A DNA stretch of 64,000 bases from Thermosynechococcus sichuanensis E542 (GTDB lineage: Bacteria > Cyanobacteriota > Cyanobacteriia > Thermosynechococcales > Thermosynechococcaceae): the NCBI RefSeq assembly GCF_003555505.1, contig NZ_CP032152.1:2093001-2157000 (forward strand). The letters are read 5' to 3'. Each line of letters opens with the position of its first letter. Positions within the stretch are counted from its first letter, which is position 1. The position numbers were made by a program, and so were the translations under genes. Under the pieces are notes generated by a model, which made no database searches, was not told the origin of the DNA, and saw nothing but the letters and a program-made list of their open reading frames with translations. Positions 61,819-64,000 of the stretch are shown piece after piece.

Positions 61819-62100
61819 ATGAAGCCCTCGATGACCGCTGAGCAGTATCTCAATCACCCCACCTTTGGCTTGCTCTATGGGGTCTGCCCTCTGGATGAGC
61901 ATCGGCAACTCTTTACCACGTTGTATGCACAGCGGCTGTTCTTCATCGTTAGCCAACGACCGGCGGGAATGGAGTTTGAGTCCATTAGCCGCACCGATGC
62001 GCGGATGCTCATTGAACAGCGGTTGCGATCCCTACGCCGCCTTGGCAAAACCGCTGAATACCAAGCCCTCCAAGCGATTCATCGCCAAGCCTTCATGTAG
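61819..62100 (+). CDS. pipX: PII-interacting protein X (NtcA coactivator)
   Basis: A 93-residue PipX. The N-terminal Tudor-like domain is recognised in YLNHPTFGLLYGVC and LFTTLYAQRLFFIV, and the C-terminal helices in RTDARMLIEQRLRSLRRLG. PipX switches between the PII protein GlnB and the nitrogen regulator NtcA, depending on 2-oxoglutarate and ATP/ADP, coactivating NtcA when 2-oxoglutarate is high. The length matches the known ~90 residues. A second in-frame ATG at 61831 is possible. In several cyanobacteria pipX is followed by pipY; here a MerR regulator follows after 15 nt. Confidence 0.92.
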   Translation: MKPSMTAEQYLNHPTFGLLYGVCPLDEHRQLFTTLYAQRLFFIVSQRPAGMEFESISRTDARMLIEQRLRSLRRLGKTAEYQALQAIHRQAFM

Positions 62101-62115
62101 GGAGACGACCATTCC

Positions 62116-62541
62116 ATGACACCAAGGACATGGCACATCAAAGAAGTGGCCAAAGAGTTGGGGATTCATCCGCAAACGCTGTACTATTACGAGCGCATTG
62201 GCTTATTACCATCGCCCCACCGCACACCAAGGGGCTACCGCGAGTTTACCGAGGTGGATATGAGGCGACTGCAATTTATTCAACGGGCAAAGGTATTGGG
62301 ATTTCGCCTCAAAGAAATTCGTCAGATGCTAGATCTGCGCGAACAACGCACCCTTACCTGTGTTGCTGTGTATGAGCAACTTCAGCAGAAAATTGCTGCC
62401 ATCGAAGCACAGATGATGCAGTTGCAAGCTCTCAAAAGTGAACTGGAGAGTCTCCTGCAAGAATGTCGCAGCCGCCTTAGGGAAGCGACCACGGATCAGG
62501 CCTGTACCCTTTTGGAGGATTCGGAGGAACTTACCCCTTGA
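62116..62541 (+). CDS. MerR-family metal-/thiol-responsive regulator
   Basis: A 141-residue MerR protein: winged helix-turn-helix (about 6-75, HIKEVAKELGIHPQTLYYYERIGLL and RGYREFTEVDMRRLQFI) and a dimerisation coiled coil. Cys82, Cys117 and Cys130 are at or near the positions of the mercury ligands of Tn501 MerR (82, 117, 126), so a thiophilic metal or redox ligand is plausible, though the ZntR/CueR details do not match exactly. It begins 15 nt after pipX, so it may ride on the pipX transcript. Its TGA is part of the -35 element of the promoter it probably controls. Confidence 0.88.
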   Translation: MTPRTWHIKEVAKELGIHPQTLYYYERIGLLPSPHRTPRGYREFTEVDMRRLQFIQRAKVLGFRLKEIRQMLDLREQRTLTCVAVYEQLQQKIAAIEAQMMQLQALKSELESLLQECRSRLREATTDQACTLLEDSEELTP

Positions 62542-62569
62542 CCCTATAGTTAGGTATAGGGTTTAGCCT
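62538..62569 (+). promoter_or_regulatory. predicted MerR-type promoter and operator for the thioredoxin-permease genes
   Basis: A -35 TTGACC (62538-62543) and a -10 TAGCCT (62564-62569) are separated by 20 bp. Within lies the perfect dyad ACCCTATA-N6-TATAGGGT (62541-62562), which overlaps the -35 box. A dyad inside an over-long (19-20 bp) spacer is the hallmark of MerR-activated promoters, which the activator untwists. The start of transcription would be about 30 nt before the small gene at 62602. Confidence 0.72.
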
Positions 62570-62601
62570 AGCGTTAGAGCAACGCATTTAGGAAGGCTGG
62601 T

Positions 62602-62844
62602 ATGAGTGAACTCACGGTGGAGGTTCTTGGTACAGGCTGTAAAAAGTGCCATGAATTGGAGGCTAATGCCCGCGCTGCTTTGGCTCAGTTGAACTTGATC
62701 GCCAACGTTAATCATATTACCGATCCCCTGGCGATCGCCGACTGTGGCGTGATGCGAACCCCCGCCTTGCGGATCAATGGTCAAGTGGTCTCCCAAGGTA
62801 AAGTACTGAGTGCGGATGAAATTGCTGCATTACTCCCCCACTAA
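62602..62844 (+). CDS. small thioredoxin-fold redox protein (TM0996/MTH895-like)
   Basis: An 80-residue protein with a thioredoxin-like fold and a CKKC active site (C13-C16) in LGTGCKKCHELE, and a conserved cis-Pro in MRTPALRINGQVV. Cys48 could be a third redox residue. Its relatives (redox-active disulfide proteins) are often beside COG0701 permeases; their partner is unclear. AGGAAGG is 5 nt before the ATG. It follows the predicted MerR operator by about 40 nt, and the permease starts 20 nt after its stop. Confidence 0.88.
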   Translation: MSELTVEVLGTGCKKCHELEANARAALAQLNLIANVNHITDPLAIADCGVMRTPALRINGQVVSQGKVLSADEIAALLPH

Positions 62845-62864
62845 GATTTCCAAAGGAGAGAACA

Positions 62865-64000
62865 ATGCAAGGCAGTACCTTTTGGCAGGGGCAGTGGAAG
62901 TCCCTGTTGACAATAGTTGCCGTTTTTCTCCTGTGCTTCTACTTGCCCATTGAGCAGTTGCAGCAGTGGCCGCGCTTGCATGCTGCCTTTTGGAATGCGC
63001 TCTATCTCGTGCGCTGGTATGCCCAAGAGCACGTTATTCTCTGTTTGGTGCCGGCCTTTTTTATTGCTGGGGCGATCGCGGTCTTTCTCAGCCAAGAGGC
63101 GGTGATGAAATATCTGGGAGCCGAGGCACCGAAAGCCTTGGCCTATGGGGTAGCAGCAGTATCAGGGACTATTTTGGCGGTGTGCTCCTGTACCGTCTTA
63201 CCCCTGTTTGCTAGCATCTATCGGCGGGGGGCGGGGTTGGGGCCAGCGATCGCCTTTCTCTATTCTGGGCCGGCCATTAATGTACTGGCCATTATCCTGA
63301 CAGCACGGGTGTTGGGGTTATCCTTGGGAATCGCCCGGGCGATCGGTGCCATTCTCTTTAGTGTGGTGATTGGGTTGATAATGCAAGCTCTCTTTCCTAG
63401 CCCCGTTACAGCACCCGCCGCCACTACCGCACCACTCGTGAGCGATGAACCCCCCCGCCCTTTGTGGCAGCAGGTCATCTTCTTTGCGGTGTTGGTGGGA
63501 ATTCTGGTTTTTGCCAACTGGGCACAACCCACCACCGATGCGCCCCTCTGGCAGGCGATCGCCCTTGGCAAGTGGTGGCTGACGGGCTTCTTGGCTCTAA
63601 TCCTCAGTGGCCTGTTGGTTTACTGGTACCAACTCAGCCCCTCCAAAGTCTTGCTCGTTGTCAGTGTCACCGCAGTCTTGGCATGGCGATTTGCCTCGGT
63701 GCCTTTGGTAGCCTTCAGTGCCGGCATTGTTGGCTTGGGCTGGTTAACGAGCACCAGTCGGGGTGATGCCAAAGCTTGGTTTGAATCTACGTGGGAGTAT
63801 GCGCAGCAAATTTTACCTCTCTTGTTGCTGGGGGTGCTCATTGCCGGTGCGCTACTAGGACGACCGGGGAGCGAAGCACTCATTCCTAGTCAATGGATTA
63901 CCCAAGCCGTGGGTGGCAACTCAATACTGGCGAATTTCGTGGCGGCGATCGCTGGCGCGTTCATGTATTTTGCAACACTGACAGAAGTTCCTATCCTGCA
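62865..64000 (+). CDS. COG0701/DUF318 permease (ArsP-like), 3' end outside window
   Basis: The frame starts with ATG at 62865, 4 nt after AAAGGAG, and stays open for 378 codons to the window edge, so it is incomplete. It is a polytopic membrane protein with at least eight hydrophobic helices. The family core GTILAVCSCTVLPLFASIYR has the conserved CSC (107-109), followed by RGAGLGPAIAFLYSGPAINV. Members include ArsP, which exports trivalent organoarsenicals, and other permeases of unknown cargo. It is the third gene of the merR-thioredoxin-permease set; a role in exporting a thiol-reactive compound is inference. Confidence 0.88.
   Translation, partial: MQGSTFWQGQWKSLLTIVAVFLLCFYLPIEQLQQWPRLHAAFWNALYLVRWYAQEHVILCLVPAFFIAGAIAVFLSQEAVMKYLGAEAPKALAYGVAAVSGTILAVCSCTVLPLFASIYRRGAGLGPAIAFLYSGPAINVLAIILTARVLGLSLGIARAIGAILFSVVIGLIMQALFPSPVTAPAATTAPLVSDEPPRPLWQQVIFFAVLVGILVFANWAQPTTDAPLWQAIALGKWWLTGFLALILSGLLVYWYQLSPSKVLLVVSVTAVLAWRFASVPLVAFSAGIVGLGWLTSTSRGDAKAWFESTWEYAQQILPLLLLGVLIAGALLGRPGSEALIPSQWITQAVGGNSILANFVAAIAGAFMYFATLTEVPIL

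Follow-up and report, generated by a model that had tools for sequence, protein, structure and literature searches.

The sensing of arsenic by bacteria is credited to repressors of the ArsR/SmtB type. ArsR represses transcription until its ligand releases it, whereas MerR is an activator held at a distorted promoter; in its classical form, established for MerR and CueR, activation proceeds by distortion of the DNA. Among the proteins acting on arsenicals, ArsP is a methylarsenite permease, and an ArsE/ArsF/ArsG system for aromatic arsenicals was reportedly described by Chen, Zhang and Rosen in 2019. Here we analyse a 64,000-nucleotide stretch (hereafter the window; bases 2093001-2157000) of the 2.65-Mb single-contig genome of Thermosynechococcus sichuanensis E542, near the end of which the gene for a MerR-type regulator (merR) is followed by genes for a thioredoxin-like protein (trx) and a permease. 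Comparison of this locus with its relatives indicates that the promoter is a real and conserved one of MerR type and that it very probably governs a thioredoxin-permease pair of arsenic type. Such a pair belongs to known kinds (ArsE family and ArsP_1, respectively), and its control by MerR would be the new part. In a passage of one review (PMC12193353), MerR, CadR, CueR, ZntR, CoaR and PbR are listed for metals and ArsR-SmtB for arsenic. No description of a MerR-family arsenic regulator or of MerR control of a trx-permease pair was found among the titles and abstract openings of the open-licence PMC literature, subscription papers lying outside this scope.

The thioredoxin-like protein scores 87.5 bits against TIGR00412 (cut-off 62), carries a CKKC motif and matches MTH895 (PDB 1ilo) at 2.8e-10, which places it in the ArsE/MTH895 family. 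The locus thereby resembles the ArsEFG system, whose ArsF and ArsG models are matched by genes next to the permease in other bacteria; it differs in having an ArsP_1 permease in place of ArsF/ArsG and MerR, not ArsR, as the regulator. The permease shares with ArsP the Pfam family ArsP_1 (PF03773; 186.2 bits against a gathering score of 32.3) and a CSC motif, but it is 441 residues long, is usually paired with a thioredoxin gene, and no ArsP-specific match was listed in the NCBIfam scan. With MerR, CueR, PbrR and CadR the regulator has in common the domain architecture, a promoter with a 20-bp spacer and the positions of Cys82 and Cys117; it is set apart by a third cysteine at position 130, 13 residues from Cys117, by scores below all listed equivalog cut-offs and by relatives that have the same operator and adjoin arsenic-type genes. 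ArsR-controlled ars operons likewise combine a permease and an ArsE-like thioredoxin beside a metal(loid) regulator, whereas MerR is the adjacent regulator at 23 of 50 cyanobacterial trx loci (the window's included), in two of them as an in-frame fusion. The gene order also differs, being trx-permease in cyanobacteria and mostly permease-trx elsewhere. A preliminary description of this DNA had reported a regulator, a CKKC redox protein and a CSC-containing permease in contiguous order with small gaps, and both the order and the motifs are confirmed. Its COG0701 permease is confirmed at the level of the ArsP_1/COG0701 family, a narrower identity as ArsP itself being no more than possible. The module is less self-contained than was proposed: merR, trx and the permease gene are contiguous, but pipX lies 15 bp before merR and a glutathione reductase gene (gor) 35 bp after the permease gene. 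The dedicated thioredoxin is less unusual than had been thought; the unusual element of this locus is the MerR regulator.

Between merR and trx, the dyad ACCCTATA-GTTAGG-TATAGGGT comprises two 8-bp arms that pair perfectly around 6 central bp, where one pair in three matches. It lies inside the spacer between TTGACC and TAGCCT, which is exactly 20 bp long and agrees with the 19-20-bp -35/-10 spacer enclosing a dyad that characterises promoters of metal-responsive MerR-family regulators. The position and the spacer had been correctly recognised in the preliminary description; the dyad, taken there as perfect over 22 bp, matches in 9 of 11 pairs. It is not significant on its own: the window contains two dyads with perfect 8-bp arms spanning 18-26 bp, and five mononucleotide shuffles of it contain between 7 and 12 each. 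Because dyads with such arms are not rare by chance, the case for an operator rests on conservation.

To follow this conservation, one set of 242 genomes drawn from the class was searched for merR, the permease gene and trx, and 202, 70 and 48 of them, respectively, matched at E≤0.001. The trx search yielded 52 places, and the 50 stronger ones were mapped from fetched neighbourhoods. With at most three mismatches, the pattern ACCYTATA-N6-TATARGGT recurs at every one of the 23 trx-permease loci that have an adjacent MerR gene, and with at most two at 21 of them; the conservation beside this gene pair in related cyanobacteria that had been suggested as a check is therefore found. Where no MerR gene is adjacent, the operator is seen at 6 of 9 loci with a permease of the long type, as in the window, five of them at ≤2 mismatches; among the remaining three, two have a decayed merR, and for one the upstream sequence is limited to 175 bases. 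Among loci with a permease of the short type and no adjacent MerR, it occurs at 1 of 17 (L114, three mismatches, with a MerR gene about 5 kb upstream). A different dyad, about ATATATYGATATATATCRATATAT, which presumably resembles an ArsR/SmtB-type operator, stands upstream of trx in six MerR-free short-type loci (L112, L132, L135, L136, L138, L143). Across 57 distinct loci of the MerR subfamily, the operator lies within 600 bp in 44 at ≤1 mismatch, in 50 at ≤2 and in 53 at ≤3, leaving four without it (L093, L094, L157, L177). At ≤1 mismatch, 58 fetched loci contain 28 sites versus none in ten mononucleotide shuffles of each; at two, three and four mismatches the same loci contain 5, 14 and 30 sites versus 0.5, 5.0 and 46.3 in the shuffles. 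The promoter is conserved together with the operator: TTGA and TANNNT separated by 20 bp surround 54 of 58 distinct operator sites (≤2 mismatches), and automatic hexamer scoring gave a spacer of 20 bp in 48 of 59 rows, 18 bp in ten, which also have TAAGCT at 20 bp, and 21 bp in one.

Within the genus, represented by 11 genomes, regulator and operator are kept or lost together. At ≤1 mismatch the operator occurs exactly once in each of six genomes (G000, G030, G102, G133, G168, G202), always at trx-permease, and in none of the other five (G044, G058, G092, G140, G147); three further sites appear at two mismatches. A close MerR match (E 3.6e-35 or better) is found in exactly the same six genomes, the other five having none better than 3.6e-24; thus, the operator accompanies a close merR in 6/6 genomes and occurs in 0/5 genomes without one. 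The trx-permease pair itself is present in G044, G058 and G147, and neither gene is found in G092 and G140. The merR orthologues closest to the window's, those of G168 and G202 (77 and 80% identical), stand behind a near-identical pipX, the gene for a nitrogen-control co-activator (L093, L094), with no operator nearby, while the operator is retained before trx on another contig, an arrangement that suggests regulation in trans. Both G044 and G147 (L122, L123) have a decayed merR after pipX, followed by trx, the permease gene and gor. The last three open reading frames (ORFs) are full-length despite the decay, and a searched region of 1000 bases that begins upstream of trx and reaches into it contains no operator site with fewer than six mismatches. 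Such a joint loss is expected if an unactivated promoter with a 20-bp spacer is useless without MerR. G058 has a short-type permease with a divergent ArsR-family gene. These natural experiments, in which the regulator has moved and the operator is kept, or the regulator has decayed and the operator is gone, make the link between the two directly testable.

In the MerR tree (55 rows), the clade of the window, formed by its own sequence, G202 and G168, sits on a long stem and other members of the genus group elsewhere. In a tree of 72 permease rows, 19 of the 20 cyanobacterial ones make up one side of a branch, and the remaining one (L116) is paired with a row from Methylococcaceae; five genomes form the window clade, which is supported at 100/100, and G102, G133 and G030 belong to other clades. 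Since members of the genus are found in separate clades of both trees, the module has probably been acquired more than once in the genus.

Thioredoxin and permease are closely paired. A permease ORF follows trx on the same strand within 260 bp at 49 of the 50 cyanobacterial loci, the exception (L121) being a 44%-identical protein. The permeases are of the long type at 23 loci and of the short type, about 330 residues, at 26; incomplete ORFs are short in L125 and L147 and interrupted in L107, L110 and L113. Of 24 genomes in the 242-genome draw with a long-type permease, 23 have this thioredoxin, and G128, where the match is cut by a contig edge, is without it. The motif GCxKC is present at 47 of the 50 trx loci, the others reading NCKKC (L127), CKKG (L120) or being divergent without CxxC at this place (L121). 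In the permease, Cys60, Cys107 and Cys109 (C107-S-C109) are invariant in 20 cyanobacterial rows; judged by their neighbours, they correspond to Cys64, Cys111 and Cys113 of the homologue L184, which are invariant in 54 rows from the genome_contigs collection. So close a pairing suggests that transport by COG0701 proteins includes a redox step. A sequence search among solved structures returned no relative of the permease at E≤1. A structural model of L184 (predicted local distance difference test score, pLDDT, 81.9) places the CSC motif at a break between helices 94-108 and 112-124. With this model, Foldseek found nothing at E≤0.001, and a second comparison gave NaDC1 (8w6d; Z 12.5, 311 aligned, 4.9 Å) and ArsB (10tp; Z 10.5, 264 aligned, 5.8 Å), the caution level for helical bundles being about 13; the resemblance of the model to ion-transporter-superfamily proteins, ArsB included (Z 10 to 12.5), is suggestive only.

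The regulator has the winged helix-turn-helix and the dimerisation helix of the MerR family, with cysteines at the sensor positions for thiophilic +2 ions. Cys82, Cys117 and Cys130 are invariant in all 18 aligned rows, 16 of them trx-linked (the window's included) and two pipX-linked. Among the matches listed in a plasmid search with this MerR (at least 5000 records), all were below 60% identity. In two loci, MerR and thioredoxin are fused in frame (L105:2665-3327 and L116:2503-3201). A stop-free fused frame occurs in 2 of 388 genomes and is not a widespread form. The fusions may reflect a contact between thioredoxin and sensor, or merely the loss of a stop codon.

What the pair handles is indicated by its surroundings in other bacteria. 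The long permease is encoded by at least 536 stretches in genome_contigs, of which 80 loci were kept, two of them cyanobacterial (L183, L184). A thioredoxin of the ArsE/MTH895 family lies within 5 kb at 73 of the 80 and is adjacent on the same strand at 63; ACR3 is found within the same distance at 12, ArsC at 13 and ArsJ with GAPDH at one, and MerR at none. Same-strand upstream neighbours contain HTH_5 (ArsR) in 43 of 49 scanned cases, none from L183 or L184. Among 97 downstream neighbours (two from L183 and L184), the NCBIfam models matched at E≤0.001, counted without model cut-offs and with several models possible for one gene, include TsoB (23), thioredoxin (20), ArsG (18) and ArsF (13); Pfam gave DsbD_TM (15), DGC (8) and FmdE (5). 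In Methylococcaceae locus L185, arsR, ArsI/CadI (130.5 against 116 bits), permease, trx, an ArsC-like gene (below cut-off) and acr3 stand in a row. In cyanobacteria, the same MerR subfamily and operator precede ACR3 and ArsC in L151, L174, L176, L178, L179 and L180 (phmmer; NCBIfam on L179 only) and GAPDH and ArsJ in L100, and ArsJ borders the short-type trx-permease loci L104 and L112. A weak match in L095 (2.1e-11), initially labelled acr3, was discarded, as that genome has no acr3 at 1e-40. Together, the ArsR, ACR3, ArsC, ArsF, ArsG and ArsJ neighbours favour arsenicals as the cargo. Thus, from the list put forward initially (an arsenical, another thiophilic metal(loid) or a reactive sulfur species), gene context in other bacteria and beside the MerR subfamily argues for the first, and the others remain as rivals.

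The explanation we prefer, and consider reasonably probable, is that the locus forms an operon for arsenical detoxification, inducible through a MerR-type activator that stands where ArsR stands elsewhere. The gene order, the geometry of operator and promoter, the coupling of operator and regulator and the pairing of trx with the permease gene come directly from the comparison of sequences; from these we infer that MerR binds and activates, which ligand it senses, which way transport runs and what the thioredoxin does. A MerR dimer on the 22-bp operator, within the over-long 20-bp spacer, would keep the promoter off. The ligand bound by Cys82, Cys117 and Cys130 would be trivalent and thiophilic, with As(III) or an organoarsenical(III) as the likeliest candidates, and the ligand-bound regulator would re-align the promoter and thereby switch on trx, the permease gene and probably gor; both the geometry of the promoter and the cysteines fit classical MerR activation by DNA distortion. 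The ArsE-like thioredoxin would keep the arsenical or the CSC site of the permease reduced, hand the arsenical over, or reset cysteines of the permease or the sensor. The permease would then export the arsenical, making the pair a candidate dedicated arsenite or organoarsenical exporter in the genome of the window.

Several observations weigh against this explanation. In the genome of the window, there is no ACR3 at 1e-40, no match to ArsC (TIGR02689) or ArsI and no ArsM match at 1e-20, although the ArsM model reached its cut-off in 0/242 genomes and its co-occurrence is not interpretable as evidence. No arsenic gene stands beside the pair; ArsF and ArsG are not seen next to the window genes, where the neighbours examined in locus L002 are pipX, merR, the permease gene and gor, the rest of the genome not having been searched for them. 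The ArsJ gene of this genome lacks the operator, and PF02040 (ArsB) has two weak matches there that pass the Pfam score. At the level of genomes, trx and ACR3 do not co-occur, ACR3 being present in 28 of 48 trx-bearing genomes versus 144 of 242 overall (hand count). The trx product of L120 (L120:2535-2777), which has MerR, operator and permease, lacks the second cysteine of its motif. In addition, the operator does not mean arsenic, because the MerR subfamily and the operator also adjoin genes for MerT-HMA, zf_CopZ, heme oxygenase and desaturase-like proteins, and an arsenic-only subfamily is excluded. The desaturase, zf_CopZ and ho/hemN labels in the MerR tree were set by hand, with L181, L152 and L158 tested by family. 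An ORF of 274-288 residues, mostly of family f24, stands beside this MerR and a near-identical operator in L154, L159-L164, L166-L173 and L181; it is desaturase-like in L181 (a DesA-family match below cut-off), and the others were matched by length only. Heme oxygenase was identified by reading the sequences of L155:3132-6174, with hemN next, and L156:2785-4035. In L152:3454-5241, the operator (two mismatches), MerR, a MerT-HMA fusion and a zf_CopZ-like protein (the last by eye) follow in a row and may form a unit for mercury or copper that is governed by this MerR subfamily. MerT-HMA fusions and zf_CopZ-type proteins are also found beside this MerR and operator in L158 and L175, and in L157 without a site.

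These metal-related neighbours lend some weight to another explanation, in which the regulator is an ordinary soft-metal MerR responding to Hg(II), Cd(II), Pb(II) or Cu(I) and the permease an SO_0444-like metal exporter. Cys82 and Cys117 align with cysteines of the sensors 4ua1 and 5gpe, which we take to be mercury MerR and PbrR, and of CadR (6jgv), and the best NCBIfam matches of the regulator are MerR, CueR, ZntR and CadR. In L132 and, by eye, in L135, trx is preceded by a cation-efflux (CDF) gene; an HlyD-like ORF takes this place in L119. We nevertheless regard a soft-metal module as rather unlikely, since the equivalog cut-offs are missed widely, by the regulator (MerR, 98.4 against 150.85 bits; CueR, 91.6 against 147.4; ZntR, 79.9 against 167.95; CadR/PbrR, 86.3 against 151.45) as well as by the 378 in-window residues of the permease (SO_0444, NF033936, 71.7 against 300, a weak similarity; SaoE, NF040736, 78.9 against 325), and since genes for ArsR, ArsE, ArsF, ArsG, ACR3 and ArsC occur around the permease in other bacteria, although cyanobacterial neighbours were not systematically scanned for metal genes.

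The frequency of the ACR3, ArsC and ArsG links around the permease also makes it improbable that the module serves reactive sulfur (persulfide, polysulfide, thiosulfate) or thioarsenicals, with the thioredoxin reducing a persulfide and the permease exporting a sulfur species. Sulfur-related genes do occur beside some short-type loci, which is a further point against an arsenical cargo: a gene for a BLH-, sulfur-transferase- or phosphatase-like protein of 138-145 residues precedes trx in L098:5750-6178 (family search) and, by eye, in L106:345-782, L114:2314-2742 and L141:3616-4032, and a rhodanese precedes it in L137. However, the BLH-type match, tested in L098, is below the Pfam and NCBIfam cut-offs, and no sulfur gene was recognised by eye beside the module in L002. 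The sulfur reading also draws some support from Synechocystis, where SuoR/SuoS/SuoT link the responses to arsenic and sulfide (PMC4307280). Finally, we find it hardly credible that the dyad is a chance inverted repeat, merR a mere neighbour and the pair otherwise regulated. Dyads of this arm length are indeed common by chance in 64 kb, 16 of the 26 short-type loci have neither MerR nor operator, and the operator is not enriched by number in the genus at ≤2 mismatches (9 forward sites versus 9 for the reversed control pattern, for which reason only closeness at ≤1 mismatch and site location count there), which also speaks against our explanation. Yet its sequence, its spacing and its joint presence or loss with merR are conserved across many genomes.

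If true, a MerR activator for arsenicals would be a second regulatory solution, activation instead of de-repression, and a new part for biosensors. We tentatively extend this proposal to a new branch of MerR activators that would sense trivalent arsenicals via Cys82/Cys117/Cys130, act through ACCTTATA-N6-TATAAGGT and have replaced ArsR in cyanobacteria at thioredoxin-permease, ACR3+ArsC and GAPDH+ArsJ loci, with the thioredoxin, fused in two genomes, also resetting the sensor cysteines.

The features of the locus are collected in the table. The start and stop codons of merR, trx and the permease gene were verified in the sequence; merR and trx are separated by 60 bp, and trx and the permease gene by 20 bp. 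The last 63 codons of the permease ORF (L002:3866-5191) extend past the window, to window-equivalent position 64190. From the small gap between them, pipX and merR are probably co-transcribed. The gor gene directly follows the permease gene also in the other four genomes of the window clade (L122, L123, L124, L126).

Features of the merR-trx-permease locus, in window positions
Feature	Position	Strand	Basis or remark
pipX (PII-interacting protein X)	61819..62100	+	PF12058, 135.7 bits; NF045912 above cut-off
merR regulator, 141 residues, Cys82/Cys117/Cys130	62116..62541	+	Pfam MerR_1, 68 bits; MerR-DNA-bind, 65.7 bits
-35 element TTGACC	62538..62543	+	overlaps the merR stop codon (its TGA is the stop)
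Putative MerR operator ACCCTATA-N6-TATAGGGT, 8-bp arms, 9/11 pairs	62541..62562	.	sequence and conservation
-10 element TAGCCT	62564..62569	+	20 bp from -35
trx, ArsE/MTH895-family thioredoxin-like protein, 80 residues, CKKC	62602..62844	+	PF13192 (Thioredoxin_3); TIGR00412
ArsP_1/COG0701 permease, long type, CSC	62865..64000	+	PF03773; 378 residues inside the window
gor (glutathione reductase)	L002:5227-6618 (window-equivalent 64226-65617), outside the window		TIGR01424, 627.8 bits against a cut-off of 606.05

Elsewhere in the window, the minus strand encodes a protein of 1315 residues (59791 to 55844) with PAS-like repeats and with GGDEF and EAL motifs recognised by eye.

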